This document shows positions 362 to 64,000 of a stretch of DNA of 64,000 nucleotides, in pieces. Below the pieces are notes generated by a model. It was not told the origin of the DNA. It searched no databases and saw only the letters and a program-made list of their open reading frames with translations. Source of the stretch: Deuterostichococcus epilithicus (taxonomy: Eukaryota; Chlorophyta; Trebouxiophyceae; Prasiolales; Stichococcaceae); NCBI GenBank assembly GCA_033439295.1, contig JAVTLE010000023.1, positions 1,116,001 to 1,180,000 on the forward strand, read 5' to 3'. The translations under genes were made by a program, and so were the position numbers. Positions within the stretch are counted from its first letter, which is position 1. The number at the start of each line of letters is the position of its first letter.

Positions 362-3300
362 ATGGAGCAGGGGAATGCATCCAACAAGGCGTCGGATGCG
401 CTGCAGCTGAAGCCTCGGCGGTACCAGCAGGAACTGTTCGAAGATGCATGTCGAGGCAATGTGAGCAAACACTGGTTTTGATGGCATGCGCCCAAGCATG
501 CACTTGTAACCATGCATGGTTATTCCGGAACCACTGCGTTGCGATACGAGTGAGACTGTTGACGGCGTATCAGGTTTCGATTGCTTATCTACTCGCGCAG
601 GTCATCGCCTTTCTGGACACAGGTAAACATGCGTGTAGTTGTGATGCGCACGTCATGTGCGGCACGGTTGCAAGACGGAACTCTTGCCATCGCAAGTGGG
701 GTTGATGCAGGCGCGGAGTCCCCTGCATAGATCCTCCCGATCCCATTCCCACCGTGCTGTGCATGCTCACGGACCATCAAGGTCGCCATGCCGCTGCCGC
801 CGCAGGCTCCGGCAAGACGCTTATCTCCATCATGCTGGTCAAAGAGAAATCTCGCGAGCTGCAGCCGCACCTGGAGCTGGGGAAAGGGCGCAAGTTCACA
901 GTCTTCCTCGCGCCGCAGGTTGCCCTGGTGTTTCAGGTCGGTCCCTCAGGCCAAATCTTTGCGCACCCATCCTCGGCAATCCCCTTGGCCAGGGTCCTTG
1001 CCGTTGGCGCAATCCCATCATGGACCAAGGTCTTGCAACATGGGGCAATAAGGCTGTCGGACAGGTGAAAGCTCTGGACAGCACCATCGCAAAACGCGGT
1101 GGCACTGCAGCCGCAGGCGGACTTGCGGCATGGATCTCCGCGGCAAGGCAGCAGTCGCAGGTCTGCAGTACCAAGATGGGCAAGTCAGCATTCAGCGCTT
1201 GCGCAAACGGCGTGAATCTGTCGAACCTGTTCCTGCCCTGCAGCACGCAGAGATGCTGTGCGAGCACACAGTGGGCGCGCTGTGCGGCGAGATGACGGCC
1301 AACGGAAGAAGGTGAAACACACCTGGAACGCCCCTCAGTTCTTCATTGTCCCCGCGCCGCAGCAAGCGGAGGTGCTGCGGGAGCACACGGACCTGCGGGT
1401 TGGTGCGCTGTGCGGCGAGATGGCGGTCGACTGGTGGGACGCCAGCCGCTGGGAGCGCCACCTGGCACAGCATGACGTGCTGGTGTCCACCCCACAGGCG
1501 CGGCTCCCATCGCAGCCGGCTGTCACTCAGAAAAGACTTGCCATCTATCGCACAGGGTGGTCCTGGGCGTTACATGACCGAGCAGGATGTGCTCGTATGC
1601 TGCGGCGGGGATAACAGGCCCCGTGCGTCGGACATAATGCCGCATGGATGCCTAAATTGTCTGTCTGCTTGAGCCTCCTCACTGAGGCGGCGAGGAAGGG
1701 CCGTGTTCGAATAGCGCAGTGCGGTACGTGCTGAGCGCCATGCCGCAGGCACTGACCTACATACATGCTGTTGGTGTGCTGTCCAGCAACAGGGCATGCC
1801 GAGGATGCCACGGCGGCGCGCGCACCCTATTTGGCAATGCAATGGGGGCAGGGATGCCAGGCTTTCGAGGTGTCAGAGCAACTTGTGCTCCTGCCCGCTT
1901 GCAGGTGCTGCTGGACGCACTGCGACACGGCTTCGTGGATGTGAGTGCCCCCCATGGATTGTTTGCATGTCTCCTTTCATTTGAAATTGCGTGTGTGATT
2001 CTCACTCACGTCACTGCGGCCCTGAGCTTCACTCGGATCAGCTGGGCACTTGAATGTGGCACCATCGACCGCCAGGCTGATCCAGCACCGCTCTCCGCAG
2101 CTGGCAGGGGGACAAGCAAACCCTGCTGTGCTTCAAAAAGCATCCAGCGACGGGTCCAGTTCTGATTGAGTCGAGACGTTTCGATGTCTGCAGCTGGCGT
2201 GGGTCAACCTGCTGTGCTTCGATGAGGCGCACCACGCAGCCAAGGCGCACCCCTACGCGCTGCTCATGCGGGAGTTCTACTTCCAGCTTCCGCGCTGCCA
2301 GCGCCCCCACGTCTTCGGCATGACGGCGTCGCCGGTCAACGTGCGGGCGACGCACACGCTGGAGAAGGTGGGGGCCACCATCCTGGAGCTGGAGGCCACC
2401 CTCGACGCGAAGGTGGGCGCGCGACCGTCTAAAACTCTGTGGACCACTGCCAAGAGACAGCGCGTGATCTGGCTGTTCGGCGAGCTGTTTCCAAAACTGG
2501 CAACCACGAGGTGGTGCCATAGGAGCTGTGACCTTGCAGACGTGGTCGGCACGCTCTGCCGATGTGGCAGTGCAGCACCCCCGAGGGAAGGGACTCGAGT
2601 CTGTCAGCTGCCGGCCCCACAAGTGGCAGCCCACGTGGCCACATAGCGCCTGCTGCAGTGTCGGCCGTGCGCAGCAGACCTGGCCGCTGACCCTGCTGCT
2701 GCGCCTGACCGGAGCCGTTGCAGGCGCAACACACACGGCAAGGGCAGCGAGGGCTTTGTTGCCGCACGTGACCCTCGCGTTTCTGTAGAGCCACCCGTGC
2801 GCTGTCCTCGAGAAACCGAGATTTTGCAGTTGTTTCTGTGTCTCTCGGCGATGTGACCCCCCAAAACCCCACCCCAGATCCCACCCTCCAGACTGCCTTG
2901 CTGCCAGACCGGCATACGCGTCCGGGGCGTAATTTCTGAGACACCACACATTACGCCTGCTGAACTGATGCAGGAATACCTGCGCTACAGGTGATGACGG
3001 TGGTGGACCGGCAGCAGGTAGAAGCAGTGGCGCCGACGCCAGAGTGCATCGTCAAAGAGTACGCACTGCCGCCGGCCTCCCCCAGCATCCAGGCCGCGCT
3101 GGGTGGGAATGTCATCACACCTGCGAAATGACCCTGGATCGCCTTTGCGACAAGCTGTCAGTCGTCAGAGGCTTCATGAGTGGTGCTGCATGGCGCACAG
3201 GTGTGGCACAGCGGCGAGCAGGCATTTGCAACTGCGAGCTTGCAGACAATGCTGCCGTTGTGCAGGACATCTGAAGCTTCGGGCAGCTTCCGGCAGCTTT

Positions 3301-6300
3301 CATGTGCTGGTTCATGTCTTGCTGCTCGTGTCTTGGAATATAAATAAGGGGTCACATCCCCGNGNCCCCCCCCTCCCCCTGATTCCCAGTGCTTTCGGTG
3401 GCCAACTCCGCTACATGGATCCACTACCTGCAGAGAAGCTGTCCACTGCACGAGAGCAGCTGCTGGAGTCGGCGGCGCAGGCGGCGCAGGCGGCGCTGCT
3501 CCGCGAGCAACAGTGCGCCCCTGCAGATGCTTCCACCCCCAACTGCGTCCGCCTCTGCTGCCTGCAAACAGTGCACCGTCGAATGTGGCGCTGCGCCCTG
3601 CTTCCTGTGGCTGGGCGCCCCTAATCGCTTCGATTGCGCCATGTCGGACCTCTCCGTCCCAGCTTGCTTTGCAAAGAAGGCCTGGCCTGAAACTATCCGG
3701 ATAGCAAAATCCCCTTGCACATCGCCATGCCAATGTACTGTGCTCCTGTTGCCATACTGGTGGCGCCTCTGGACCGCTACCGGCGTGAGGCCCTGAGCAC
3801 ATGTCAGCTGCTGTCTGTGGGATCAGACCAGGTGGCAGCTGGATGGCCAAAAAAACGGCATTGGGAGGGCTGGCATGGTGATCCGCTCAGCAACGGGCGC
3901 CTGCACAGATCTGCTTTCGTTCGTATGCCAACAATAGGGCTCTGCAGTTGTGACAATACCCCACCTTATCGGGCGTGATTTGCATCGGGCGTCATTTGCA
4001 GAGCAGTGCGCTGCTGCAGACATCAACAAATACAAGTGCCTGCTCACAGAGTTCGAGTGATCAGACATATCATGGTTACAGCGCTGCGCTTTCACCAGTC
4101 AGAGGGTGGAATCCTGACTGCAGGGTATGGGGGATCTCTGCTGGGGATGCGGCTGCGGCGGACGCCAAGCGCGTCAACAGCGCCTCGGCGCGCATGGCGC
4201 GTCACCTGGCCAACATCGCCTGCACTCTGGAGGTGTGCACCCTGGACGTGCTTCTTGCAACCGGACACCTCTCCTGGAAGTCTGATGTTGGCCTCTTTCG
4301 TTTGTGCGCTGTCACACGACATCAAGACGTCCTCGGCGCGCCCCTGGCAATGGCTGAAGCCCTGCGATTGGAGGCCTCGCTGGTGTTCACCAGGCACGCA
4401 CAGTCTCATGGTGCATCGAAAAGCTTTTCTTCGAAAGCGCCGCAGTTTGGCTGGCCCATCATCTCCCTGCTGCAGCTGCGGCAGCAAAAGTAGCGGCAGC
4501 AGCTGCAGCAGCTGTAGCCATCGCCTCTCCATCACGACCGGCAGCACAGCGCTTGCCTGTGTCTGCACGATAACCGTAGTCAAGACTGAGCAGCCTTTTC
4601 CCACATGGACGGCCAGCATATCGGTCCCAGACCAATTTCTCTAAATCTTCAATTGGCGTGTCCACAGGATTGACTGGTCACCACTACTTGGTGCGCCGCC
4701 TTGGCCTCGCCCGCAATCTGAGTGCAAACACCATGACTGCGGCTGTGCTGCTGACCCTCTGAGATTTCATCCACTGTGGCCGCAGGAGCTGGGTCGCAGT
4801 AGTGAACCGAGTCTGCAGTCTGCGCGCTGCTGCAGCCTAACACCCACCGCGTGTACCTGGCCGCGGGTTAGACATGCTCTAACCTTGAGTACCCACATAA
4901 TTCGGGTTCAGCATGTCCGCAGGAGCTGGGGCCATGAAGCGGCCGCCAGCGCATCCTGCGCGCTGCTGCAGCCGATTGCACGCAAGATGTGCCTGGCCAA
5001 CTCTGCACCAGAGCTCGGAGATGTTCGAGTACCTCTCTGGCGCGGCCGCAGACTGGCCACGGGTAAAATTGCTGGAACCTTGAATATCAGACATTTGCAT
5101 GATTTGAGTTCGGCATGTCCGCAGGAGCTGGGGCCGTGGTGCGCCGCCTCGGCGTTTTGTGCGCTGCTGCAGCCCAGCACCCGCAACCTGTACCTGGCCG
5201 GGGGGCGCGCCGCCGGGCAGGAGGACGCGCTGGGCCTCGCCGACGCGCCGGCGATGGGCCTCGCAGATGCCTGGTGCGAGTTGAGGGGCTTCAGTCATGG
5301 GTTGTATGATGCCGCCTGGTGGGATCGCCCCGTCTGACGCGCCGGCGGCGGGCCTCTTGGACGTCACTTGGTGCGGCAGCCTCCCCTCAAGCTGGCGATA
5401 CTTGGCAGGCTGACTGGGCTGTCAGTACCAGCGGTTGGAATCCGACAGAGACTGCCCGGTCGATTGCTCACCAGCGTCGAAGCACCGTTCTCGGGCACCC
5501 GAATGAGTGCCCTTTGGGATTGTATCGAGGCCCTTGCGGCATGACTGGCACAGGCACAGCCAGGCTCGGACAGGCTGCCTCAGAGCATGCATGCCCTCTG
5601 TGTTGCGTAGACACTCGACGGCAGCACTCTCTGGCTACCATGTCTGCTTGTCTGCCTGCGCCAAGTCTCCGGTTTCAAAGTGGTAGGAGCTGCATCTGAC
5701 TAGGACTCCCTTCTGTTGTGGACATGCGATGCTGATCCGGATGCGCATCCGAAAGTGTTAGTCAGCTGCTCGCTCGTGCGCAGGCTGCTGCCGGCGGGTG
5801 CCGCCGTGCCGGCGTCGGGCACCCTGGAGCGGCACGAGCGCTTTGGGTCGGACGCCGAGGCGGCCGCCATATTCGCGGCCCTGCGGGGAAGTGTGGTAGC
5901 CGTCGCGGAGCTGCTGGTCCCGGACGAGCCGCAGCGCACGGTGCTGCTCGATGGTGTGCAGCTCCGCCGCTGGCTCCCGTGCAGGCATTGGTGCAGGTCT
6001 GGGCTGGACTGTGCGTCGGGCGGGTGGGTCAAGGCACCACACGCCGGCGCCGGGCTCTCCTCAGGGTGCTCGACGCGCCAGCTGCCTGCAGTACTGTTGC
6101 GCCAGATCAGCAGTTTTAACAGCAACACTGTCAAAAGCCAACCTTGTGAGGGCAACACAATGCACTGGAGAATCCCAAATCAGACCTGAGCAGGCATCAG
6201 GTATACACCTGCCCCGTGCTGCAGTTGCGCACCATGATGCTACAAGCATTGGGCCAAATCCTGCTGCCAGCCGGTAGCAGCCTCAGGTGGACGACTGTAT

Positions 6301-9300
6301 TCACAAATGGCCAGCCTGGGGTGATAACTAAGGTGGATCTGAATCTTCTGTGTAAGCTTTCATCCTCGTTCGGCTGCCTGGCCGCAGGCGCAGCGGATGG
6401 GGCGCCGTCGTCGACGGGCATGCGCAGTCAGCTGCGTGCGGGGCTGGCACGCTGCCTTGCCGCGGTGCCGCCCGCAGTACTAGAAGCCCACATCCTGGGC
6501 AGCGAGCCGGCGTCCGCCCCTGTGACCCTCCCAAGCAGCGCTTCGAGTGGTGGCGGAGAAGGTGGTGCCGGCGCTGCCGCGAGCGGCCCAGCCTGCAGTG
6601 GGAATGGAGCCGGCGGCGGCGGCGGTGGAGGCGCAGGCAGCGGCTGTGGTGCAGGCGATGGGGGTGGCGGCGGAAGCTGGAAGCACCATGAGCTGGCGCA
6701 GCGGGACTACCGCCTGGTGACGCCCAAGGTTGCGGCGCTGGCGAAGCTGTTGCTGCGCTACAAGGTAATGTGGTATGTTTTGACTCGGTTGGCTACAGTC
6801 GGATATGCATCGGAATGCTGGCCTTGGAATGATGTGCGCACAAGACCAGAGGCATCTACTAGCAAGGCCTGCGGCCAGCCCAAGGCCGCTGGCGCTGGTC
6901 GAGCCACAGCCGTTCTGCGATGAAATGGACAGAACACCCGCACTCGCGCGGGATCGGTTGCATAACGATGCATCTGCATCATATATGAAAGTCCTCACAG
7001 CATGCAGCACCACATCAGGCTTCAAGCAGTGAGTTTCGATGCCACTGCCGCTTTCTCGGCGCACGCCCCAGCAGCAGAGACACTCGTCTCTGATTCAGGT
7101 ACGACACGCGAGTGAAACCGGCAGGAAGCGGGCAGCCTGGGTCGTGTTTTACAATATTGTATTTGTCCTGCATCCTTCGCTTGAGGCCTCAAGCGTCTGC
7201 TGGTGCCGCCCGCTGTCGCATCCCTTAGCGCTTCGATGTCGTCAATCAAGCTTTGAATCGTCCTGGTGCTGAACTCACAGGAAGCGGTGCTGGCGGGCGA
7301 CATCCTGCCGCAGCTGGTCCTGCATCGAGTGCCTGAGACATTCGGGTACGCCGCCGATCGAACACAAACCCCCTCAACTCGCCAACACACGCTGACGACT
7401 TTCCGTGTATACTGTTTGACAGGATGCGGCGCTGGCGGAGCAGCCATCGCGCCGCTCCTGGTCCTGCATCGTGTTCGTAACCCGCAAGCTGGCGGCGTTC
7501 GCGGTCGACGCAGCGCTGCGAGCGGTGCCGGGACTCGGCTTCCTGACAGCGGCACCGTTCATGGGCTATGGCGGAGACACCTCAGCGGCTTCAATGGACG
7601 TCAAGGTAGGTTTCGAATACGGTCTTACGGTTCATAAGCTCAAGCAGAATTTTGTTCTGTCACGGCGCTCTTTGTGGGCTGCGGCACATCGGCGGCTTCC
7701 ACGGACGCCCAGGTCGGGTTCAAGTCTGGCTGAAGTCAAAGAAAGTGGTTTGAGGAAACAATTGTTCGTCACTGATCAGGACGCACATATGTGGTCGTGC
7801 CGCTCTCCATCAGGACAGTCTCATGCGCCACCGCATTGCTGAGAACACACTCTGCTTCTCTGCCCGCAGAAATCTCGTAGCTGGAGCGCTTCAAGGCAGG
7901 ACGGCCTTGCCTCAACACGCTGGTCATCTAAACTCCTATGGGCATATACTTTCTGGCTCCTCACCTATACTTCCCTCCTTCTGTGCGATCTGGCTTCCTG
8001 CCTGCTCACCAACGCTTCCGTGCTTTCCCGCAGACGCAAAACGCGACGCTGCAGCGCTTCAAGGCGGGCCGCCTCAACACGCTGGTAGCCACCTCTCTGG
8101 CGGAGGAGGGACTGGACCTCAAGGCCTGCCAGCTGGTGGTGCGGCGCCTGACACATTTCAATAGCCTCCGGGCTTTGCAAACTGGCCAGTGACCTGCGGC
8201 TGGAAAAGGGCCCTTGACATGATGGCCCCCTGCCAGCTGACGGTGGGCAATGCGTCATCAATCAGGGACTGCACGGCGGTCAAGTTTCAATTCCATGCTA
8301 GCATTGGCGCTCCAGCATCTTGGAGACCATGCTCGGCGCAAGGCCGGCAATATTCGACCTGATGTCGCGCAGGTCTGTGCCAACATGCTGGATTCTGTCG
8401 CTGTGTGCGTTCTGTTCACAAGCAAGCTGTGCGGTCATCATCATGCCTGTGCCTGGACGCGCCAACCGTGCGCTAGCTGGCGGCCTGTCAGCCCTATCGC
8501 TAGTCTTTTCCAAAGCTGCACGGATCTGCCGTAGCTCGTGCTTCTGCAGCAAGACGCGCCCGTCCTATTTCATGGTCTAGCCTCGATCGGGACCACGCTT
8601 GGCGGCCGGTCACTTGCATAGCGCCAGGGGTCTGTAGCGCAAGACCATGCGGTGACAGCGGTCTGTGGGATGGCAAATGTGGGCAAGCACAGCTCAACCA
8701 CCGGCTGCGCAAATGTGAATTCGAGACGTCGAGCATCTCTGCAGGCTCGCAGAACAGAACACAAGTGCGGCACAACCCTGCGGCGTGCAATGCGTGCAGG
8801 TGCGCTTCGACCTGCCGGCGACACCGCTGGCGTTCGTGCAGAGCAGCGGCCGCGCTCGCGTGCTGCAGAGCCACATGGTGCTCATGCTGCAGGCGGGCAA
8901 CGAGGAGCATGTCTCCCTGCTGCAGAGCCTGCGCGGGTGAGCATCATTCTTCCTACATTCCCGTTCGAGTGCATGACCGCCCATGATCCTGGCTCCGTGC
9001 CTGCATTTTGGAAGACCTTTTAGGGTGATTCTGCGCTGCCCCTTCGGTATTGAGTGTGAGTTTGAGCTGTGAGTGCGGTGGGGTACTGCAGGCATTTGAT
9101 GAGATGTGCTTGAACATACCATTTCGTGAAGCGTCAGAGGATTGTGACTTTGCGTTATGATGTTTCTACCGTTCAGATGTGGAAGACAAGCTGCAGCATG
9201 GGGCGGCGTCACCGCCACTGGAGGTCTGTTTCAGTTTCCTCCCATAAGTTTCTGAGTTCGACCCAGGTACGAGGAGATCATGCGGCAGGAGGCGGCACGT

Positions 9301-12300
9301 CGGCGACTCGACCGGCTGGGCCTCGGCGCAGGCGCCGCAGCTGACACTGCCGACGACCCGGACGAGGTGCTGTGCGCTTCTGGCTGTAATCTTTGAGCTG
9401 TAACCGTGCTTTGCTGCACAGCCCGCCTGGCAGAGAATCGCCCTGGTGCTAGGCGGAAGGGATTCACCATCCTCGTGTCTGCAGCATCATGATGCGCTGG
9501 CTGGCCGCCGTCTGCCATGCGGCAGTGACGAGCAAGTGCATTGCCGGCCAAGCACAGGCGTCTGTGCAACATGCAAGACAGCTTGCAAATGCGACCCTCT
9601 CCGCAGGGCTGCATATGTCGTCCACTTAGCGAAGCCAGCCTGATCACCTTCTCCGGCAGCAAGTGGACTACGACACTACGAACAGGGTACAGCTTCGCAG
9701 TACGCGATGTGTTCACTGGTCGGAGGCAAGCCACTAGCTGTCGGAAAACACGAGCCTTGTGCTGGCCTTCAGCTTCCTCCCGTTGGATAGCAGATCGACC
9801 GGCCGCCTCGCAGCAGGCACTAGAAAATGACATCTCCATCCACGCGCATTGCGTGCTTGAAATGCCACGCAGAGAGTATGCCGACTGATCATCGTCGATC
9901 CTGCCACAAACATGCGGTCCTTTCGTTCGTTGCACCGTTGAAAGTCGTTCACAAAGACACAGATGGCGATGGGCAGCATCAGGCACTTCGTGAAGCATCC
10001 ACGTTTGCGCCATCGGTCTGCGAGCAGTTTAAACATTTGAAAGGTGTTGGGCAAGGCGCCTGACACAAATGTACTTTTTCAATTCCGTGGCGTGACGCAA
10101 GCTGGTCTGGCAACGCAGGAGCTGCTATCGAGCGCATGGTTGTTGATGGGACAGCTGCAACTGGCCCTTGCAATTGCCGGCACTGTGATGGGGCAGCACA
10201 TGGCGGGAGTCCGCAACAAGAAGTGACATGATGCAGATCGCTATGTTCATCACAGGAGCTGCTGTATCGCGCATGGCTGCTGGCAGGGAGGTCCTGGGGT
10301 GCTGGGATTGGCGCCCTGACCACAACTGCAAGCGCCCAAGCCCACCCTGTGTTCAGCGGCAGATTTGCCACTGGTTGTGTGCCAACCCTGCGCCGCTGAT
10401 CAGCTGGATGCGGTTGTAAATGCAGGAGCTGCCATCGAGTGCGTGGCTGCTGGCGGGGCAGCCTGAAGAGGCCCTGGAGTACCGTGTGCCGGCCACGGGC
10501 GCCAAGGTCACGCTCGCATCCGCCAAGCAGCTGGTTTTCCACTTCTGCGCGCGGCTGCCCTCCGACAGGTGCGGAAGCGTCAGAGGTGCAGAGTGATGAG
10601 GCCATGGCCGCGATTAGCTCCGACCGACAGGACACTTCCCAAGTGGCACAGCAAAGGTAAAAGAAGTTGCACAACAGCTCAGTGAATTGGCAGCAGGAAG
10701 GACGCGCCGACACTGGTCATGTCACTGCTGCGGAATGCACATGTATGCTTACCTAGCATTGATCGTTGAAGGCGTTCTGCTGGCGGTCACATCTGGTCAA
10801 TGCAATATGAAAGACGTAGCGTGCTTCACCCGAGCGCAGGTACGCAGCGCTGCGGCCGCGCTTCGTGACGGAGGAGGGCTTCGTGAGCCGCGTGCTGCTG
10901 CCCAACAACAGCCCGGTGCGCGTGCGCCTCCAGTCGAAATGGCATCATAGTATATCGAGGACTGCGAGACATTCGTTCTATCTCTGATTGTGGTCGGGAC
11001 GTGAATTTGGATCTTTGTTCACATCCAGCCTTCCGGTCAGAAATTCTCTGCCATCGTGTTTCCATCACTTCTCCCACCGCCCAGGTGAGGGAGGTACGCG
11101 GCCGGCTGCAGATGCGGAAGCAGCTCGCACGGGCGTCCGCCTGTCTGGAGGCCTGCCGCCTGCTTCACCAGGTGACTTTCCAGAGTTGAAACGATGTGCC
11201 AACTCCCGAGCCAGCTGCGTTGTGAAGTCCAAGTGTCAGATAGGAGCCGCTGATGCGAGGCTGCTCAGCCGCTTGTGCTGCGGATGCTGAGCCACGTCTG
11301 CCGACATGCGTGCAGCTGCGCTTCTCAAGCAGCTGGTCGCTGTGTGCATTGGGCGCACCTTGAAGGAGGCACGCGGAAATTTCTATAATGGAGGTGTCAG
11401 GCGTCATATGTGCGTTCAGACACCTCCCGCAACCTGCCCGGCGTCGGCAGGTTGCAGAAACGATTGTACGCACCTCTGGCTCCCAGGATATTGCTACTGC
11501 GCCCTGGCTACAGTCGATGAACGCGACTGCCGGTGGGGACTGTGCCGCGCCTGCAGCCTGCAAGCCACTGCGACGGCCGCCTCCCGGCGCCTTCCCTCGG
11601 TCAGATGGTCAAGCTCCAGACTTTACTTGTTGGTGGCTTTGGTAGCAGTTCGCAAGTCTCTGGTCATTACTGTATGCAGGCCGGTGCGCTGAACGACAAC
11701 CTGCTCCCCGAGGCACGGGATGACGGGGTCGGCTCGCCGCGCGGCGGACGGCAGGCCTCTGGCGATTCGTCGGACGACAAAGACGTGCAGCGCCCGGCGC
11801 AGCAGGCCACACAGGCGGCGCTGCCGCCCTTCGAGCTGGCGCAGCACGCTCCTGCGGCGCTGCGGCTGTGCGCCCCCGAGCGGCTGGAGGAGGCGATCGT
11901 GCGCGAGGACGCGGCGGCTGACAGGTGGGCAGCAACGTAATTTAGGGTTTCACGTACTTCTGCAGCACGCCGAGTGAACATTGTAGACTGGGGAGGCCCA
12001 GAGCGGCTGGAGGCGGTGCCATTGCCCACAGGGGCGCGGCACAGGACAGGTCCTTCCGAAAGCCTGAACATGAAGCGAAGCAGACATCTGATGCATCAAT
12101 CGGTCACAGTGGGAACATGATGGCAGAGCATGTCACGTTGAGAAAGCTGTCGCGCGTGAAGATGCCACACAGGATACGTGGGTCTGGACCAATGACCTGA
12201 GGGTATCTTCAAACATGAAGCCCCACCTGCGTCGTGCAATCTCATGCACTGCTACCTTGGGATTTAAGCACGATTTCGGTCAGGCTCGCTCGCACCGAGC

Positions 12301-15300: not shown

Positions 15301-18300
15301 AGGTACAACGGCTGGCGCTACGTCGCGGACAGCCTGCACGACGGTCTGACGCTGGAGGCGGCGATGCCGGAGGACCGGACAGGAGCCGCCGCGGCGGAGC
15401 CCGATGGGCCGGCCCCGAAAAAGCACAAGTCGGACACTGGCAGGGCTGTGCCGGCTGGCACCCGCACCTTCAGGGAGTACTACAGGTGCCCCATTGATGA
15501 AAATCTCAGATTGTAAGCGACGATGCAAGGTTGGACAGCTTTGCAGCAACAGTTTGTTCCTCAGGCATGCAAGGTGACGTGGGCGGTAGCTTGCCGACAG
15601 GTGACGATGCCGGCAGCCTCTGGCTGCGACAGGCTGCCAGCGGACCGCTGCCGACGCGGCGCAGCAGGCGCAGCGCAGAGCGCAATCCCACCCCACATCC
15701 TGCCCAAATGCCCAAATGCCCACTGGACACATGAATTGCCGTGTTGCAGGGAGCGCTGGGGGGCGCACGACCTGAAGCCGCAGCGCCTGCTGCTGGCGCG
15801 CCACGCCAGCCGCCGGGCGGGGCCACAGGATGCCGCGGCGGCGGCAGAGGCGGAGGCGGCCCAGGGGGGCGCAGGCTCGGCGGTGGTGTGCCTCGTACCG
15901 CAGCTGTGTCTCGTGCACCCGCTGCCTCGTGCCGCCTACATGGCCGCCAGGTGTGTGAAAGCACTCTGCCCGGAAGGAGTGAGAGAAAGGATTGAGAGCG
16001 AGTGGTGGCTTGTGCTGGGCTCGCCGACTCCTGGTGCCCTGGCAGCGCCTGAGAACGCGTAGGCATTACCGGCTCAGGTGCAGGTGGCAGATCACCGCGC
16101 TTCACACTCTCCTGCACGCAAGCCCAGGATCGCACCCCACATGAGCATATGCAGGTGGCTGCTGGTCGGAAGCATGGCAGCAAGGTTGTCCCGTGCCTGT
16201 GGCCTCATTACGAGCACTTCAAAATATGTGACTCTCACCAGTGTTGGTGGAGCAAGGTGTGTCAGGAAATGCATAGCCCACAGGCTGGTTGTGCACGTGT
16301 GGCAGCATGTGCAGGCAGCCTGGGTGCCATTGCTGATGCGAGGGGCACACTGCATCGTCAACCTCTAATTGACGATCAAGTTTGCCTTTCTGGAGCAATT
16401 GCGCCCTGCTGCTTCTGCATTGCTTTGCCGTCACTTCTGGAGCCAGCTGCATGGTTGTAAACCCTGCTTGCCGGGGCACGCGCCCTCCGATAGGCTCGAA
16501 GCAACTGTGCAAAACGAAGCTGTGGTTGCGCGCAGGGGCGTGCCCCGGCTGCTGTGGTGGCTGGGCGGCCTGCTGACGGCGCAGGAGGTGCTGGCGGAGC
16601 TGGCGCCGCCAGAGCTGCCGCCTGACCAGTGCGCGTCAACTCTCGATCTCACTCTCGCTCTCAGGCTTCTTCAGTCTCACTCCCAGTCGCACTCACACTC
16701 TCGCAAATACCGTCATCTGCTAGCAGCTCCTGTGTCTGAGCCTCGTAGCTCGAACGCCTCTCCGGGGATGCAGAGCCTCCTGTTGCAGCTGCCGTCCTCG
16801 ATCGCAGGCAGGTGTGCACGTTGACACCTTTCTAACGCGATCGGCAGCCATGTCCAACTCAAAGCCCTCGACTTCAGACGGCCGCAGCCCGCTGCGGTTG
16901 TAGGGGTTGCGAATTCCAGCGGCCTGCCAGGTCTTCATTTGTGACAGGCAACTAGTGGGTTGGTGCAGCGCCGATTATGCCAGATGCCAGCTTGACCACA
17001 GGCGCCTGGCATCGCTGCGAGTGGCAGAGGCGCTGGCAGGAGCGGCCTGCCACACTTCACCTGGTGTCTCCCAGAGTCAGATGGCATTGACCATGCTGAA
17101 TCACATGTCGCTGACAGGCGGCCGGGGCCGCTGCGGGTGATGGAGGCGCTGACGGGAACAGCCTGCCAGGAAGCCTTCTCCTATGAGCGAATGGAGACGC
17201 TCGGTGACGCGGTGAGACTCTCAATCTCCCTTTCGGTGGCGGATTTCGCATCCGGTTATGTGACTGATCAGGAACTCAGCAATCTCCCTTGCAATTGAAG
17301 AACACTAGAGGCCGCAAGTGCGACGAGCTTGCGGCGCATCTGCCAGGCTGCGACGGGATGCCAGGCGATATTGTGAACCCCGCAGCGGAGACATCTGCTT
17401 CGCAGGGTTCATCACTCGCCCTGCACCTTCAGGGATAGAAGCAAATGCGCCTGCCATGCGCGTTTGGGGTCCGTTGAGAGCACAGCATGCACTGCTCGTG
17501 GTGCACAGCCATCTGGTGGCACGATGCACCTTCCAAGAAAAGGCCAGGTGTCGTAGGTGCAGGCAGCGCAGGGCTACCAGCGCGTCTCGGGCTGGAATTT
17601 TGCCTCCGACTGAGGCGCTCTCATGGCCCAGGTGTTTGGAGCTGCCCAGGCGCTGAAGGATCTGAGGTTGTTTCGCGCATCAGGTGCTGAAGTTCGTGAC
17701 GTGCGACCGCCTGTTCGAGCTGCACCCGTCGGCTCACGAGGGGCGCCTCGCACTGCGCAAGGACGCCGTTGTGTCGAACGTGGCGCTCGCGCGGAAAGGC
17801 CTGGCGCTCGGCCTGCCGGCCCGGCTGACGGCGCCCTTTAGGTCGGTCAGCTGTAATATCCCGCCCCTCGATTGTTATTGTTTTGGGCGGCGCTTTCAGC
17901 TTGGCTTCTTTAAGAGTGTGATGCTCGCGCGACGGCTGGCGCCGAGTCTGCTGACAGTGCCCTTCAGATGGGCTCAAATGGCTTCCCTGACGTCGTACTG
18001 CACGCATCATTCACCTCCCTTCTATGGTGTTGGAGCTGTTGCGGGGCGGATTCTGCATTTCAAAATGTGCGAATCTGCGAATGTGCGCATTGCAGAAAAC
18101 AACGAGCAGCAGCCGGCACCCTTACGCACATCTCGTACGGGTTCTTGCTCTGGCCGCGATTCGATCTGGGCTCGATGCAACCTGCACTTGCCCCTGCATC
18201 TCCAGTCGCGCTGCTCCCCCCGGTGGGCTGCAAAACCAATGACAGGCGGTTGTGTGTTGCCGCAGCAGGTCGGTGCGGAAACAACAGAGGCAGGTGATCC

Positions 18301-32356: not shown

Positions 32357-32440
<84 letters not shown>
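32357..32440. repeat. (AGC)28 trinucleotide microsatellite
   Basis: Twenty-eight perfect AGC units lie between LINE copy B and the 3' end of the ISD11 gene. Purity suggests recent expansion. It is not inside any model I support. Confidence 0.95.
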
Positions 32441-32441
<1 letters not shown>

Positions 32442-33529: not shown

Positions 33530-37290
<3,761 letters not shown>

Positions 37291-48400: not shown

Positions 48401-50258
48401 CATCTGGTCGATGGTATCCGCCACGGAGGCCATGGACCTGACCGCCAGGTGCGTGTGGTTCCATGCTTCGGCTGCAGTCGTCTCGAGGCGGCGCCTCCCA
48501 TCCAATGCCGCCGAGTGCCCTTGCCGCCTGCTTTCCGACCGTCTCCAGGTCCTGGAGGGGTTCCAGGCTGCCTGCTGCGCACACTCGCCTCGACCTCCTC
48601 TGATGCAGGGCGAAGGACACCTTGCCCCGCACAGCGTCCTGGATGCCACGATCTTCATCGACTCTGAGGCAACTCCTGACTGTTGCTGAAGTCCATCACC
48701 ATCCTTCATGCAGGGCGGAGGTCGCGGTGCAGCGCACGGCGTCGCTGCAGCAGCGCTCCCTGATTTCGGCTCCACTCCAAGTTGCACTCTCACACCCGCT
48801 GAACGCCGCTGACCCTTCCTAAGACCCTGCTGACGCAGGGCGGAGGATGCGATGCAGCGCACGGCGTCGCTGCAGCGGCGCTCTTTGGACTTCGGCTCCG
48901 CGGGCGCCTCCTACGGCTACGGCCGCGAGGGCGGCTCGCTCAAGGGTGGGGGCCTTCGTGGCTCGACGCCCGGCGGCGGCGCGACCACGCCGCGGCAGCA
49001 GGACTACGACAGCGACAGCGACGACGACGACGTCAACGAGGTGTGTGGGACAGCCGGAAGCATGGCCGCCTTGGTTCCTGCTGTCGGTGCCTGCTGTTGT
49101 TCCTGTCGCCGTTTCTGTTCTGTGGTGCGGCCGTCTGCGCTGTGTATGGCGAGGTTTGCGGCGCGGTGCGGAGGGGTTTTCCTGCATCACTAAGCACTAA
49201 ACCCTAAACCCTGCTAAGGAGGCGAGTGTTTTGGCGCTGCACCTGTCCTCACTGGCATTGCTCTCCGAAAGGGCTGCAGGTGGGGACGCCTTTTGCCGAG
49301 AGAGTCTGCTCCTGGAGGTATGCTACATGCAGGTGGACACAACCTCAAGCAGGCGCAGCTGCAGAGGGCGTCTCCATGTTTATTGATGCAATTCCTGGGG
49401 CCCTTTCAGGTGGAGATGCTCCTGGAGGCGTACTTCATGCAGGTGGACAACACCTGCAACAAGCTGCAGACGCTGCACGAGTACATTGACGACACGGAGG
49501 TGCGCCAATCCGCACGCCTCACGCTGTTCCACCGTGCATGCTGCAACCCATGACAACGTGACCGGTCACCTTGCATGACGGTTGGAATTACGACTGGTTG
49601 GCCCAGCCATAAGCTTTGAAGGCTCTCGTGTCACAGAGTCGCAATTGACTGGTGCAGAGCCACCTAGGGCGAGTTCCCCAATCTGAAGCTAATGACAGGT
49701 TCAAGTTTTGTCATTTCCCCTGCCTGCAGGACTACCTGAACATCGAGCTGGACAGCCATCGGAACCAGCTCATCCAGCTGGAGCTGCTGCTGACGGCGGG
49801 CATGTTTGCGATGGCGCTCATGACGCTTGTGGCCGGCCTGTTCGGCATGAACCTGAACAACACGCACGAGGAGTCCTACTCTGCCTTCATCACCGTGCGA
49901 CCCCACCTCTGCTGCATGCTTCCTGAGATGCAGCCCGGGTCGCGCAGCGCCGGCGCGGCTGTTTCCATCTATGCATTATCAGGCAGCTCCGCATGTCACG
50001 GGCATGCCTGCACAGTCCGAGCCTATCCGATGCCACCGCATAGGCTTGCAGCCATGCCGGCATCAGCTAAGCACAATGACTTGTGTTGTGAGGCGCTTCA
50101 CAACGATGTTTTCGTTAGTTACCTCTCTATGGCACTTTAGTGGTTGTTGCCAAAAAGCAGCCCTTGACAGACTGTGTGATTTGATGCCGCAGGTTTCCGT
50201 GGTGTCATGCGTCGGCTCAGTGCTCGTCTTCGTGGGCATCATCCTGTACTTCAGGTAG
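45473..50258 (+). CDS. MRS2: MRS2/CorA-type magnesium transporter, 473 aa
   Basis: Exons 45473-45616, 45938-46102, 46340-46441, 46807-46965, 47270-47377, 47590-47667, 48072-48214, 48839-49040, 49410-49499, 49730-49894 and 50193-50258 sum to 1422 nt, all phases matching. The soluble N-terminal domain shows [23 protein letters not shown] and [12 protein letters not shown], classic for plant MRS2/MGT proteins. Two membrane segments follow near the C-terminus; the first ends in GLFGMNLNN, whose Gly-Met-Asn motif is the selectivity filter of the CorA superfamily. It forms pentameric Mg2+ channels; whether in mitochondrion, chloroplast or vacuole is not evident, as the N-terminus is not a clear transit peptide. 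Exon 8 encodes an acidic, Ser/Gly-rich insert. The first ATG after a GCCGCCGCC context was chosen as start. Confidence 0.92.
48265..48340 (+). repeat. Donor-side echo of MRS2 exon 7
   Basis: GACATGAAGGACATG and CCTGAGCGCCAAGT copy the end of exon 7 ([10 protein letters not shown]). Confidence 0.85.
48603..48662 (+). repeat. Acceptor-side echo of MRS2 exon 8, copy 1
   Basis: ATGCAGGGCGAAGGACACC, then CGCACAGCGTCCTGGATGC, is a diverged copy of the acceptor and start of exon 8. Confidence 0.75.
48709..48778 (+). repeat. Acceptor-side echo of MRS2 exon 8, copy 2
   Basis: GCAGGGCGGAGG, GCAGCGCACGGCGTCGCTGC and CGGCTCC match exon 8 almost perfectly, apart from small changes. Spacing is 106 nt to copy 1 and 128 nt to the real exon. 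Confidence 0.9.
49272..49372 (+). repeat. Acceptor-side echo of MRS2 exon 9
   Basis: TGCTCCTGGAGGTATGCTAC and ATGCAGGTGGACA copy exon 9 ([11 protein letters not shown]), with small indels. Confidence 0.8.
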
Positions 50259-58116: not shown

Positions 58117-61100
58117 ATGGCAGGCGGCGGGGGCTACAAGCGGCCAACGCCGAGCGGCGGGCCCGGCATGCGGCAGAGCGGGCCACCGTCGAAGCGCTCT
58201 GGTGCCGGCGGCAGCGTCGGCGGCGCAGCAGAAGAGCCGCTGGCGGATGACATGATCGAGGATGCCGTGGAGGCTGGCGCCGTGATGGCGGATGACATGG
58301 GGTCGCCCGGCGATGACGAGGAGTTTATGCCGGTTCGTGGTCAAGCTTCACATGACAAACTTCTTATGGCCAAGCAGAAAGGCGGCTTTTGCGCCATGGC
58401 CTGTGGCTGTGCCCCTTCGGATCCGTGAATGTAGGCCCGCAGTGGGCCGGACAAGCCGGGCTGCCATGGCATTGAAACAGGCTGCTTCAGGCCAGAGGAG
58501 AATGGTGACATTCGAAGTTCTGCATCTCATGACACCAGGAGATGGGCACGGAGGCGAGCGTGGAGCTGCATCTGGGGGAGGCGGGCCGCAACTGGGAGCG
58601 GCCGCCGCCGCCGGCGCTGTCCCCCTCCACCCAGGACCTCGGTCAGTGCACCTGCTTGCCTCGACGGGCAGCACATCGTGTGTGGTCGGACCCGCAGCTG
58701 ACCACCCCTGCCCAGCCAGGCTACGGGACGCAAATGAATGCAGCTTGAGATCTCATGCAGCTGTGCCTCAGACCACTCCTCAGGGCTTGCCAGTGCCGCC
58801 GCCGCCGGTGCTGGAATGCGGTCACATCCAAGACGCGCAGAAGTGCAGCAGGCCGCAGCTCATGCACCTGAAGTGGTATCATGCAATCAAGTCACCAGGC
58901 ACTGAGAGCACATGAACCTGATATGCTCTGATCCGTCTTGCAGTCTTCCAGCAGCTGGAGCTGGACTACGCGATGGGGCCGCCGCACCCGCTCGCGCGGT
59001 CGGACCTTGCCGTCACGCCCATCATCCGCATGTTCGGCGTCACAGAAGCCGGCGCGCTTGCTTGACGCCTGCAGTGCCCTCCGGTCTCAGTGGCACAAAT
59101 TGGTGTGGTGCCCATGGCAGCGCCAGTGACGCCGCTGCGCCGCAGCCGCCCGCGGTGTGGGGGCTGGGAGCGCTTTGCTGCCAGGCTCTGTCGGTCGAAA
59201 GCTGAGATGCCACGGTGTCCTTGTGAACACAGCATTGTTGCGCAACGCATGCCTGCTGAGGCAGGCAACAGCGCGTGTGCCTCAGCGCGCAGCTTCCTGC
59301 CACACCAGTATTGACCTATGCCAGCGGGGGCTGGTGTGGATGCTCTACTTGCTGACTGTCCTGACGCCTGCAAAGCTCACTCTTGCCGATACCGCTGCGA
59401 GCAGGCAACAGCGTGTGCGCGTTCGTGCACGGCTTCCTGCCGTACCTGTACATTGAGGCGCCGACGCGGGACTTCGGCCCGGAGGACTGCGAATCCCTCC
59501 GCTGCGCCCTCAATGCGAGTTGCCTGGACCCTAAGCCCTGTCCACAGCCGCTCCGCTGCGCGCTCGATAAGATCCAGCCTTGAACCTGGCTGCTGCTTCA
59601 TGCCGCTCTCTTCGGTCGGCCCCTGCCACATGTGAGCAAGGTTCCTATGTCAGCATACTCGTTGATCGCCTCCTGCCGCGCCGCCAACAGGGAGTCAGCA
59701 GCGATCCGCGCGGCGCCAGCCTGGCCGTGCACCCTTGCTCGGGGCGTGCATGACGGTCCCTGATTCTACCCCTGGAATCTCACCCTGGTAGCTGACACCC
59801 TTCCGCATTTGGCGGCGCAGCAAAGGCTGTTGGACAGGAGCAAGGAGCGTGTGACGCGGGCGTGCCTGGGCGTGCGTGGTGAACGGAAGCAGACCCTCAA
59901 GTACTTCCAGCCGGCATCGGATCGACTGTTCCTGCGCATCACCGTGGCACTGCCCACAATGATCCCCGGCCTCAAATGTGAGTCCTATCATTGGTCCCTT
60001 CTAAACGTTCTGCCAGCTGGTCTGTGACAAGAGTGTCATCAAAGGCAGCAATCCTGTTGCCCGTGCTGACACGCTGGCTGATGTGCTGGTTGCGGCCGGC
60101 AGGCTTGCTGCAGGGCGTGCCAATACACGTGCAGTATGGCAACAACCTCTCCGTTCAATATGGCGGTTGAGCGATTGCAATGCGTTGTGTCTCACGAAAA
60201 GTCCTGCAACGTTTCTGCCGCACAGCCATCCTGGAGCAGGGGGTGCCGATTGACGCGCTGGACGGCAACCACAAGTCGTTCCTGACCTACGAGTCCAACG
60301 TGCTGTTTGCACTGCGCTTCATGGTGGACACCGACATCGTCGGCGGCAACTGGGTGAGAGGCTTCTCCAGCGCCACTCAGCTTCCTCGCCGGTGTAATTT
60401 CTCGGTTAGTACGGCACAGAACCGGCATGGTTGCCAGGGACCACTCGTGGCGGACACTGCCAACATCGTTGGCAGCAAGTGGCTGGGTCCATGTAGGCCG
60501 GTAGTCGCACTGCCAGCACCTTCACTGCTGATACATCATGCATCGCCTGCGACCGCAGGTGCAGCTGCCGGCGGGGCGGTACCAGTACCTGGACCCGGCG
60601 GCGCCGGGCCACCACCGGCAGTCGCACTGCCAGATGGAGGCGCACGTGCACTGGTCCGACCTCGTCAGCCACACGCCGGAGGGCGAGTGGGCCAAGATGG
60701 CGCCCTTCCGCATTCTGTCCACCGACATCGAGTGCGCCGGCCGCAAGGTGGGCTGTTGTGACTTGAAATTCCTGACAAAACCCTTCTGCTTCGTGCAAAG
60801 CAGGCGAAGATAATGCGTTGCCGCATCATGCACATCGACATCGTGCGTGCCAATTACAAGCGATTGCACTCGCTAGGTGTCCAAGCCTCATTTTGCTTGC
60901 AAATCTTCGACAGCCCTCCCGCGGCAGTGCACAGCATGGTTAGCGCAAGACTCAGCAGGACTGTAGCCTAGCTGCCAGAGGGAGGCAAGGCTCCACGCCT
61001 GTGTGCCAGGAAGGCAGGACTCCATGCACGTGCGCCGAGAAGGCCCCGAGCAGTAGCCCGCTGAATCTGACATGCTCCCTTCCACAAGAGTGAATATACT

Positions 61101-64000
61101 TTTCTCCACAGGGCCACTTCCCGGAGCCGGACAAGGACCCGGTCATCCAGATCGCCAGCCTGGTGACGGTGCACGGCCAGGCGGCGCCGGCCGTGAAGAA
61201 CATCATGACGCTCAACACCTGCGCGCCCATCATCGGCGCGGAGGTCATGTCCTTCGAGCGGGAGGGGGACCTGCTGCGGCGGTGGCGGGTGCGCCCCGCT
61301 GGACCCTGTGCTGTCACACTTTGATCAGGACGTGGGACGCTGCCTGTTGGTGGCGAGCGTCATGCCCTGTCATCGGTCGCAGCCAGCTCCCCCCCTTGGA
61401 CTGGTGCAGCTGATTTGGACCAATCCGGAAGCAGGAAGCCGCTAGCCGATTGCCGTCGGCTCAGAGGTCGTGTCGTCTGAGCGAGAGGGGGATTTGCTGC
61501 GGCGGTGATGGGAGCAACCCTGCGGCGCTGAGCAACCCTGCGGTAGCGCCACAACACCTGCATAACAGCTGACAAACCTGCTGAGCTCGGCCGGGCTGCC
61601 GCTGACATCGCCCTTCCTGCAGGCGCACTCTGCAATGCGCGTTCTCCTATCTCACACTAGGTCTTTTGCTTACGTTTCCACAACGGAAGCCGTTCCTGAA
61701 CTGCAGGACCTGGTGGTGGAGACAGACCCGGACTTCATCATCGGCTACAACATCTGCAACTTCGACCTGCCGTACCTGCTCAACCGGGCCGAGGCGCTCA
61801 AGCTGGGCGACTTTCCCTACTGGGGCCGCATGCGCAACCGGTGCGATGAATCACAGGTTTCGTGAATGATTTATTGATCTACCACAGCAGTCACGCACTG
61901 CCGCCTGCCATTGAGGCGCTGTGGCATTGACCGGTCACCCAGGTGTGGGCCATCTCGTGTTGTCGAGAGCGTGATTGCGGCAGTCACAGTCAGCGCGGGC
62001 AGCCACGGGCCACTTGTGGATGACCTTCAGCAAACGGAACCATCCTTGAGGACTGGAACGTGTTCAAGTGTTCACACACGCGCATTGTCAGGAGATAATA
62101 AAAATTGTGTAATTTCTTACTGTACATATGTTTTTTTGGCAGGCCGCTGCGGATGCGGGACGCGCAGTTCAGCAGCAAGGCATACGGCACGCACGAGTAC
62201 AAGGAGGTGACCTGCGAGGGGCGCACCCAGTTCGACCTGCTGCTCGCCATCCAGCGCGACCACAAGCTGTCCTCCTACTCCCTCAACTCGGTGCGCGCGC
62301 GCACCGCCGCTGTGCGCATGCGGCAGGCTGAGGAGTGGGGTCGTCAGATTGCCAACCTCGCCTGCGGCCTGGGCCGGGCTGCATGTGCCAACGAAGAAAA
62401 TGAGAAGAAATGCTCCCAGATGACATGTACATAAGTATCATATTTCAAATCTACAGGTGTCGGCGCACTTCCTGGGTGAGCAGAAGGAGGACGTGCACCA
62501 CTCCATCATCTCGGACCTGCAGGCCGGCAACGCCGAGTCGCGCCGCCGCCTCGCCGTCTACTGCCTCAAGGTGAAGCATCTCGGTTTCAAGCCAGCACTT
62601 AAAGCCAGAGCCTTTTCACACTCGAGAAGAGACCTGAGTGCCGACGCTGCGCTCAGGGACACCTCCGACAACGCACCGCCTGCTCATACGCGAGCGCGGT
62701 GGACAGGCGCGGCATCTAAGACACAGCTCAGGCTTCTCACTGCAAGCCTCGTGGCCTCAACCCTGCCGGACACAGCTGGTGGACAGGGTCATGTCCTTGT
62801 TCGACTACCTGGAGATGGCATGCCAGAGCAGCCTCCAATGATGCTTCACTTGGTTTTTCCCGGTTGCACAGGATGCGTACCTGCCGCAGCGGCTGGTGGA
62901 CAAGCTCATGTACATGTTTAACTACCTGGAAATGGCGCGAGTCACGGGCGTGCCGATGTCCTTCCTGCTGACCAAGGGCCAGTCCATCAAGGTCTTCAGC
63001 CAGCTGCTGCGCAAGGCGAAGCAAAAGAACCTCGTCATCCCCTTCGTCAAGGTACTCGGGGAAACCCCAAAAGCACATGCAGCAGCGAACTCGTCGCCCC
63101 TGACGACCGCACACCACTCATTGTTGGCAGAGCAGGGTATCTGAGCTTTGCGGAGTCCACACCTTGCCATTGGGCAATGCCACAGCTGCCTAGGAGCCTA
63201 TGCTACCGGGAGGGCTACAATACTGTGTGACTTTCTGCTCGCTATGCTGCAGCCACAAGGCGGCAACCCGGACGCCATCGGGTATGAGGGCGCAACGGTG
63301 CTGGACGCTAAGGTGCGACAAATGCTCCTGTCGAATGAGTCTTCGAATTCTGAGCCGGGACGGGTTGCCACGCTACTGGGTATCAGCTGCTTGCTGAGGT
63401 GCTGCGAACGCACCGACATTCAACTGCATTGGAATCGTCAAGCAAGCCTTTGATTGTTTTTGTTCTCACAATTCATGGCGCCCGGCACAGGTGGGCTACT
63501 ACCGCAACCCTGTGGCGACGCTGGACTTTGCATCGCTGTACCCCTCCATCATGATGGCGCACAACCTGTGCTACTCCACCCTGCTGCCGCCCGACGCGTG
63601 CGCTCCCTCCAGCATCCTCTCTCTGGCATCCTTCTCCGCAAGCAGCCTCCCGTTTCAGTGTGACAACGATGAATCTGAAACATACCTGATATCGCAGCTA
63701 TGCAGCGCATGACGCCCGGGCGCCGCAGACGCAGGCCCACCCTGCTGCAGCAGGCGTATCATCTGAATTTCAGCTATGTATTCATGTATCTACGTTTTTT
63801 CTCAAGAAAATGGACCGACCAGCAGTAGATCCCATCCCGCAGGCGGCATGTTCGGAACATTGGTGCCCTCCCGCCGCAGGGTGAAGAATCACGCGCCGGA
63901 GGACTACCAGAAGTCGCCGACCGGCGACTGCTTTGTGCGGCCGCACCTCAAGAAGGGCATCCTGCCTGAGATCTTGGAGGAGCTGCTGGCTGCCCGCAAG
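58117..64000 (+). CDS. POLD1: DNA polymerase delta catalytic subunit, first 684 residues (partial)
   Basis: Exons 58117-58332, 58539-58641, 58944-59051, 59405-59514, 59821-59977, 60226-60353, 60559-60747, 61112-61288, 61707-61840, 62143-62290, 62457-62570, 62872-63051, 63253-63312, 63491-63597 and 63880 onwards keep phase throughout. This is the B-family polymerase that makes the lagging strand and proofreads. Visible in order: N-terminal domain ([16 protein letters not shown]), exonuclease Exo[11 protein letters not shown], Exo[14 protein letters not shown], ExoIII across exons 11-12 (YCLK|DAYLP), then polymerase motif [20 protein letters not shown]. The proofreading acidic residues are present. 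Motifs B and C and the C-terminal zinc/iron-sulfur region lie beyond the window; the family is about 1100 aa. Introns 3 and 4 appear to use GC donors. The start is the first ATG before a Gly/Pro-rich N-terminus. Confidence 0.93.
59262..59313 (+). repeat. Acceptor-side echo of POLD1 exon 4
   Basis: GCAGGCAACAGCGCGTGTGC and GCAGCTTCCTGCC copy the acceptor and start of exon 4 (NSVCAF.HGFLP). Confidence 0.85.
60492..60518 (+). repeat. Short echo of POLD1 exon 7
   Basis: GCCGGTAGTCGCACTGCCAG matches ACCGGCAGTCGCACTGCCAG inside exon 7. Short, so less certain than the others. Confidence 0.5.
61450..61512 (+). repeat. Donor-side echo of POLD1 exon 8
   Basis: CAGAGGTCGTGTCGTCTGAG, GAGAGGGGGATTTGCTGCGG copies the end of exon 8 ([14 protein letters not shown]) and stops at the donor position. 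Confidence 0.88.
62772..62845 (+). repeat. Acceptor-side echo of POLD1 exon 12
   Basis: GGTGGACAGGGTCATGTCC and TCGACTACCTGGAGATGGC copy exon 12 ([15 protein letters not shown]). Confidence 0.85.

Follow-up and report, generated by a model that had tools for sequence, protein, structure and literature searches.

Decayed copies of splice junctions in introns of four genes of the green alga Deuterostichococcus epilithicus point to local tandem duplication

Tandem duplication has been reviewed as one of the ways in which introns are gained (PMC3443670), and duplications inside genes are described as common (Gao & Lynch 2009, as cited in PMC4974935). According to the matching excerpts of the paper, the RdRp gene of potato contains a tandem duplication that spans an intron/exon boundary (Ma, Lan & Niu 2016, PMC4974935). 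For short tandem duplications, fill-in and end joining at nearby nicks has been proposed, and partly demonstrated, as a source (excerpts of PMC8355091 and PMC5730883). Among algae, the core-Reinhardtinia have conspicuously long introns (medians of 198-343 nucleotides (nt)), the cause of which is left open in the relevant excerpt of Craig et al. 2021 (PMC8226300). The present study concerns a stretch of 64 kilobases (kb) from the trebouxiophyte Deuterostichococcus epilithicus (contig JAVTLE010000023.1 of assembly GCA_033439295.1, forward-strand positions 1,116,001 to 1,180,000), referred to in its entirety as the window. Introns of four of its genes contain diverged copies, here called echoes, of the exon edge and splice site that adjoin them, and recurrent duplication across splice junctions is weighed as their origin.

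The window has a guanine-plus-cytosine (GC) content of ~61%. On the plus strand, Pfam and PDB searches identify a Dicer gene (best PDB match Arabidopsis DCL1), a STE20-type kinase, an MRS2-type magnesium transporter and the DNA polymerase delta gene POLD1. By themselves, the type of Dicer and the GC content would suggest a green alga as the source. The echo analysis covers these four genes in this one window, from sequence alone; the sample consists of conserved gene blocks and may not represent other genes. Gene models were made by spliced protein-to-DNA alignment against homologues, with some exons placed by eye and some target proteins entered by hand. The POLD1 model has nine GT-AG introns (60285 to 63997), and the STE20 kinase and MRS2 models are similar, corrected by eye in places (MRS2 exon 48839-49040 is a by-eye reading), while the Dicer model is limited to conserved blocks and includes several exons read by eye. 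Searches for comparison sequences from relatives returned one distant match in viral_contigs and two in genome_contigs, none of them usable.

The existence of repeats at short distance was assessed independently of the gene models. An ungapped diagonal scan (score at least 17, low complexity masked) found 24 segments at offsets of 20-619, against 0 at 5000-5599 and 0 at 20000-20599. Gapped self-blastn (score at least 38, 60-700 nt apart) gave 21 direct and 0 inverted pairs, compared with a mean of 0.48 direct pairs in control bands of equal width (1500-40000 nt), one of which held 17 pairs, probably CAG-type repeats. An exon edge and the adjacent intron are paired in 19/21 of the direct pairs, and since gene models played no part in compiling this list, the method did not impose the association with exon edges. 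Local direct repeats at splice junctions are therefore confirmed as real and far above chance, in agreement with a preliminary description of the window, which had reported intron blocks repeating part of an adjacent exon on the same strand in all four genes. Two pairs were excluded from the junction set: one at 51496, of low complexity, and the pair 19095/19409, in which the 5' end of a tRNA-Arg gene is partly copied. This tRNA-Arg (ACG) gene lies at 19497-19570 (+), between conserved Dicer blocks, and the 74% identical partial copy at 19095-19192 comprises its first ~20 nt and ~80 nt of 5' flank. A match of Dicer 21017-21064 to 23119-23166 joins the RNase IIIa exon to the paralogous RNase IIIb exon (by eye), and hence is no echo.

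Residue-by-residue alignment yielded 23 echoes, 16 of the acceptor type and 7 of the donor type. Every acceptor echo lies upstream of its working acceptor and every donor echo downstream of its working donor (16/16 and 7/7), as the preliminary description had it. Of these echoes, 19 (14 acceptor, 5 donor) come from gapped self-blastn, where order is not built in; of the remaining four, looked for on the expected side, two (Dicer 7605 donor and MRS2 48608) derive from the ungapped scan and two (Dicer 10255 and MRS2 48448) were recognised by eye. Tandem order on the same strand, with the inner copy on the correct side, holds for 19/19 unbiased junction pairs and for 23/23 aligned ones. The exon parts are 0.62-0.87 identical. 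Three copies, that is two echoes each, occur at four junctions (Dicer 5124, Dicer 10425, MRS2 48838 and MRS2 48214). Neighbouring copies are spaced at a median of 124 nt (interquartile range 115.5-141; 105-142 in 17/23), a distribution narrower than an assumed random-breakpoint model gives. The echoes are as follows, each with the functional copy at the exon edge and the distance d between the two.

1232..1303 (+), Dicer acceptor echo, AG at 1243; exon start 1363, functional copy 1351-1431; d=119
4777..4867 (+), Dicer acceptor echo b, AG at 4785; exon start 5125 (by eye); d=339, outer of a three-copy array
4912..4998 (+), Dicer acceptor echo a, AG at 4922; exon start 5125, functional copy 5114-5199; d=202, similarity runs on into the intron
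7277..7330 (+), Dicer acceptor echo, AG at 7280; exon start 7423, functional copy 7419-7474; d=142
7657..7721 (+), Dicer donor echo, GT after 7712; exon end 7605, functional copy 7543-7614; d=107
7863..7924 (+), Dicer acceptor echo, AG at 7869; exon start 8034, functional copy 8027-8086; d=164
10112..10168 (+), Dicer acceptor echo, AG at 10118; exon start 10426, functional copy 10419-10475; d=307, outer of a three-copy array
10253..10295 (+), Dicer acceptor echo, AG at 10255; exon start 10426, inner array copy; d=170, by eye; end set conservatively, the alignment extending to 10372 at 0.62
16998..17052 (+), Dicer acceptor echo, AG at 17001; RNase IIIa exon start 17118 (by eye), functional copy 17114-17168; d=116
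22883..22976 (+), Dicer acceptor echo, alignment starting at 22890, with an AG at 22884, next to a 5-nt indel, taken by eye as the acceptor motif; RNase IIIb exon start 23008, functional copy 23007-23091; d about 117-122
23239..23298 (+), Dicer donor echo, GT after 23289; exon end 23176, functional copy 23125-23185; d=113
23948..24009 (+), Dicer acceptor echo, GAG at 23954; exon 24111-24189, functional copy 24103-24165; d=156
24276..24316 (+), Dicer donor-side echo, donor unrecognisable; exon end 24189, functional copy 24144-24184; d=132
34177..34266 (+), STE20 acceptor echo, AG at 34182; exon start 34307, functional copy 34301-34396; d=124
34468..34527 (+), STE20 donor echo, GT after 34521; exon end 34432, functional copy 34379-34438; d=89
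48270..48341 (+), MRS2 donor echo a, GT after 48333; exon end 48214, functional copy 48152-48223; d=119
48398..48453 (+), MRS2 donor echo b, GT after 48448; exon end 48214; d=234, three-copy array, by eye
48600..48677 (+), MRS2 acceptor echo b, AG at 48608; exon start 48839 (by eye); d=230
48710..48773 (+), MRS2 acceptor echo a, AG at 48713; exon start 48839, functional copy 48835-48899; d=125, exon part 0.87 identical
49307..49366 (+), MRS2 acceptor-side echo, acceptor not clear; exon 49410-49499, functional copy 49417-49481; d=110
59255..59314 (+), POLD1 acceptor echo, AG at 59264; exon start 59405, functional copy 59394-59456; d=140
61456..61520 (+), POLD1 donor echo, GT lost; exon end 61288, functional copy 61233-61297; d=223
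62762..62819 (+), POLD1 acceptor-side echo, acceptor unrecognisable; exon start 62872, functional copy 62880-62936; d=118

The preliminary count of about 32 blocks could not be reproduced: the 23 clear echoes are joined by eight weaker stretches, some of which may be chance matches and all of which are kept out of the 23-pair counts. These include the following.

2094..2134 (+), possible Dicer acceptor-side echo; exon start 2194, functional copy 2187-2220
21983..22022 (+), possible Dicer donor-side echo; exon end 21945, functional copy 21908-21947; d=75, 0.72 identical
34908..34991 (+), possible STE20 acceptor-side echo; exon start 35033, functional copy 35026-35115; p=0.035
60091..60156 (+), weaker POLD1 acceptor-side echo; exon start 60226, functional copy 60216-60281; d=125, 0.67 identical
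60445..60485 (+), weaker POLD1 donor-side echo; exon end 60353, functional copy 60319-60356
60803..60851 (+), possible POLD1 donor-side echo; exon end 60747; d=113, p=0.025

POLD1 also contains, at 60498-60516 (+), a 19-nt, 95% identical piece of an exon interior (60615-60633) in the upstream intron, at a spacing of 117 and with the junction absent.

The specificity of the signal was examined at both ends of 33 modelled introns, three of which had been repositioned beforehand and one of which has a poorly placed donor (22517), using for each side a null of 200 length-matched pieces of other genes' introns. Echoes reached p<=0.005 at 11/33 acceptor sides and 8/33 donor sides. Searches on the wrong side gave 1/25 and 1/25, both involving a 79-nt Dicer exon whose edges overlap, and reverse-complement searches gave 2/33 (acceptor) and 0/33 (donor); the signal is restricted to the adjacent intron, the correct side and the same strand. 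High GC content, simple CAG repeats and the control band with 17 pairs might suggest chance, base composition or an assembly artefact, but with masked controls at 0 and these reverse-complement and wrong-side results, and with a divergence of 13-38% in codon-blind changes, which is unlike an assembly duplicate, the probability of such an origin is negligible.

The echoes are not coding, because differences fall almost evenly on codon positions 1, 2 and 3 (91/466, 86/467 and 112/457, or 19.5, 18.4 and 24.5%) and because the length of 38/43 gaps is no multiple of 3. The alignments behind the codon-position counts and the patchiness test (below) place some junctions one to a few bases away from their true position; corrected coordinates served for the intron-half scores, binned profiles, spacer similarity, splice dinucleotides, spacing and splice-site strength. 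One or more gaps that break the frame occur in 19/23 alignments, in line with the earlier remark that most copies are broken by indels. Alternative or mutually exclusive coding exons, which the four alignments free of such gaps would allow, are also at odds with the extent of the copies, acceptor-type echoes ending before the exon's donor and donor-type echoes before its acceptor, and are very improbable.

Introns with strong echoes are longer, with a median of 418 nt (n=11) versus 227 nt (n=18) for those without (p=0.0016). When the duplicated length is subtracted, the strong-echo median falls to 195 nt and no longer differs from introns without echoes (p=0.43). Omission of three borderline introns from the latter group (224 nt, n=15) changes these values to p=0.003 and, after subtraction, p=0.57. 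Four introns with only weak echoes were placed in neither group, and the grouping into strong, weak and none was set by hand. Longer introns leave more room for matches, but among the 14 echo scores in the 11 strong-echo introns, 13 lie at 44-80, above the best of all nulls (28), and the remaining one, the Dicer 7605 donor echo, scores 27 against a maximum of 19 in its own null. The identified units account for 2042 of 11111 intron nt. Mobile elements with exon-like ends, introner-like ones among them, are a further conceivable source of added sequence, and introners do create introns in many lineages (excerpt of PMC9860276). However, 0 matches at score >=38 were found between different introns of the 33, which therefore show no mobile intron element among them, and what each echo matched was the exon beside it; insertion of such elements is about as improbable as alternative coding exons.

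The copies, their order and spacing, their non-coding decay and the agreement of duplicated length with excess intron length are all read directly from the sequence. Together, the order rule, the arrays, the spacing, residual intron similarity (below) and the length accounting favour tandem duplication of ~120 base pairs (bp) across the junctions. The account judged probable on balance is that of recurrent local duplication of this size, in which the copy attached to the exon body is kept and the inner copy becomes intron. A duplication unit straddling a splice junction would produce two junctions in a row; with use of the outer one, joined to the exon body, the protein would be unchanged, the inner copy would be intronic and the intron would gain one unit, repeated events giving rise to arrays. 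The duplication itself would have taken place in the DNA, during repair or replication, for instance when paired nicks are filled in and the ends joined. The outer site is joined to the conserved exon body in 23/23 cases, upholding the earlier statement, made for the acceptor side, that the working copy is the one on the exon body (19/19 unbiased pairs plus the other four), though the mean strength of working acceptors is lower where an echo is present than elsewhere. Site use is read here from the protein alignment, and preference for the outer site may reflect the pairing of sites across the exon (exon definition), which would select the site making the exon shorter rather than a stronger or nearer one. 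The exon-derived half of the echo appears to outlast the neutral expectation, most likely through exon-to-echo conversion or constraint on live inner sites.

Several observations weigh against this account. No echo at p<=0.005 is present on two thirds of acceptor and three quarters of donor sides, and gapped self-blastn found no junction echo above 93% identity, hence no sign of recent activity. Intron definition, for which a Volvox paper argues in Volvox and Chlamydomonas (excerpt of PMC4378016), would lead one to expect inner sites to win, whereas here the outer site joins the exon body. Duplication of a whole unit predicts that the intron half resembles its partner at about twice the divergence. 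Acceptor intron halves have an anchored score of 8.8. Mismatched pairs score 4.8 (p about 0.001), and a neutral tandem duplication whose exon part is equally diverged should give ~28; donor intron halves score 4.1, and mismatched pairs 0.7 (p=0.07). In binned profiles, exon similarity extends to about +60 to +80 at acceptors and to -50 at donors. On the intron side, the excess at acceptors reaches about -20 and then falls to background save for an isolated bin at -60, and donors show no significant similarity save in one isolated distant bin. Extension of the copies into the intron, as first described for some of them, is clear on average only over ~20 nt at acceptors. The spacer between copies does resemble the intron upstream of the echo (0/20000 permutations as high, 13 pairs; p=0.008 for 11 pairs after removal of two array members whose comparison stretch contains another echo), as expected of a tandem unit, and this counts for tandem duplication, though the level is far below what neutrality predicts; the similarity is carried by about half of the pairs, with none at Dicer 1362, MRS2 49409 and POLD1 62871. 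In a detection simulation with uniform ages and placement, a duplication in non-coding sequence is detected 0.34 (t>=0.15) or 0.12 (t>=0.20) times as often as one at a junction, and the non-coding target is estimated at several times the junction target. Although many such pairs are predicted, only one was observed, and it is tRNA-linked. The simulations assume uniform mutation and duplication rates, with the gap rate taken from the alignments.

Plain neutral decay thus fails two tests, with over-diverged intron halves and near-absent non-coding repeats, and the echoes may therefore undergo refreshment or constraint, or may arise through a process targeted at junctions. Of the process first proposed, recurrent duplication across borders, with one copy joined to the exon body, the rest intronic and a measurable share in intron length, is supported within these four genes, and its genome-wide extent is a hypothesis; the notion that the rest decay as plain neutral junk is not. 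Conversion would leave the matches in patches, for which the signal is marginal (p=0.044, 22/23 alignments). A unit made up almost wholly of exon, with the spacer a remodelled echo tail, was considered and rejected: at acceptors the fit is p=0.026 (13 pairs) or p=0.28 (11 pairs, two array members removed), and on the donor side there is no exon similarity at -60 to -80.

Constraint would be explained if the echoes were live inner splice sites, that is, decoys or edges of unproductive exons under RNA-level selection, the duplications being old and the flanking intron saturated. In this case exon-part similarity would survive while the intron halves approach background, as they do. The splice dinucleotide is retained in 18/23 echoes (19 counting the acceptor beside an indel), where the rate for exon dinucleotides, 0.608, would predict ~14 (P=0.063 and 0.023, respectively), although local alignment favours retained dinucleotides. 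The 14 AG-bearing echo acceptors have a mean score of 6.83, compared with 7.35 for other acceptors and 5.09 for their own working acceptors, which are weaker than the rest (one-sided p=0.010); removal of weak-echo acceptors from the comparison gives 6.75, 6.93 and 5.21 (p=0.024). Neutral decay starting from their own partners would have left the echo acceptors weaker than they are (p about 0.001), but with an average acceptor as the starting point they do not exceed the neutral prediction (p=0.20 at t=0.19). Few spacings are multiples of 3 (3/23, P=0.026), as if use of the inner site must cause a frameshift. By contrast, GT is retained in only 5/7 donor echoes, whose mean donor score is 0.57 versus 6.00, no reason is known for conserving 50-90 nt of exon-like sequence without a reading frame, and a number of these tests have few cases, depend on one another and involve some selection. 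This reading is regarded as unlikely.

Slightly less likely still is junction-targeted copying, perhaps RNA-templated or coupled to splicing, of an exon edge and its splice site (about -20 to +80, or -60 to +10) rather than true tandem duplication. It accords with the clustering of core boundaries at the junction on the intron side, with spacers that look largely unrelated and with the near absence of purely intronic or intergenic local repeats. However, it predicts copies on both sides, which the wrong-side searches (1/25 and 1/25) do not bear out, the spacers retain some similarity to the intron upstream of the echo, and it has no described mechanism. Local tandem duplication across junctions remains the preferred account, and a speculative extension of it may be envisaged: a ratchet, in which junction duplications are tolerated as the outer site is always chosen, and inner junctions are kept exon-like by conversion or decoy selection. 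If this were true, a large share of intron length would consist of fossil exon edges recording splice-site pairing.

Other features of the window lie outside the echo set. An isolated, 82% identical copy of an MRS2 exon start (49727-49809) begins at a CAG acceptor 6 kb upstream, at 43668-43751 (+); residues downstream of it look faintly MRS2-like by eye, other tested MRS2 exons give background scores at 40.0-47.3 kb, and the copy may be a paralogue remnant. Two collinear dispersed repeat pairs, 78% identical and ~5.8 kb apart (25805-25891 / 31564-31649 and 26042-26103 / 31815-31877, +), are possibly the ends of a mobile element. At 26110-27931 (-), open frames resemble a retrotransposon reverse transcriptase by eye, with nothing in Pfam at E<=0.05. 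A long array of CAG trinucleotides occupies 32306-32441 (+), and a single 5S rRNA gene match (Rfam) 39300-39418 (+). On the minus strand, Pfam suggests a mitochondrial K+-H+ exchange-related protein (Mit_KHE1, about 40836-40920, barely over the cut-off) and a PLAC8 protein (about 56315-56491, under the curated cut-off). In the minus-strand stretches with Pfam-suggested genes, gapped self-blastn found no near pair except the low-complexity one at 51496.

For a GC-rich algal genome, the echoes offer a specific origin of intron length. They also make exon versus intron definition testable from sequence, each echo being two copies of one junction in competition. If inner copies evolve more slowly than the surrounding intron, exon-to-intron gene conversion or selection on non-coding splice decoys would be common; among the matches listed, themselves partial excerpts, neither is described in this form. 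The 2009 work of Gao & Lynch reportedly treated local duplication inside genes, junctions included, with emphasis on new introns and exons; unlike that reported emphasis, the features here are intron growth, a narrow ~120 bp unit and decayed junction arrays.

Recurrent decayed junction copies that lengthen introns have no report among the matches listed, in a literature coverage outside which most subscription journals fall, and the excerpted Haematococcus genome papers (PMC6330051, PMC10400597) make no mention of junction copies. The core-Reinhardtinia resemble the present case in their unusually long introns and GC richness; exon-edge copies are not reported for them in the excerpt of PMC8226300. 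End joining of breaks with overhangs is a known source of short direct tandem duplications such as those proposed here (PMC5730883, PMC8355091), but in these excerpts the duplications are not tied to splice junctions, and the insertions in PMC8355091 are under 100 bp versus about 120 here. In the Rogers model, as excerpted in PMC3443670, tandem duplication likewise supplies intron sequence, but an exonic AGGT unit has to turn into both splice sites, whereas here existing splice sites are duplicated; intron gain by exonic AGGT duplication was rejected, since the copied sequence is an exon edge with an existing splice site, inside modelled introns. The preliminary view that no described process has this signature was too strong in light of the potato RdRp case (PMC4974935), by which a single junction-spanning tandem duplication is already known, although its recurrent, intron-lengthening form is without report among the matches listed. 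As excerpted, the potato unit, like the one proposed here, takes in the 3' part of an intron together with the beginning of the exon that follows. Unlike that single event, however, the echoes affect many junctions, acceptors and donors alike, and no new intron is postulated for them: the inner copy is wholly intronic, and the old intron is lengthened.

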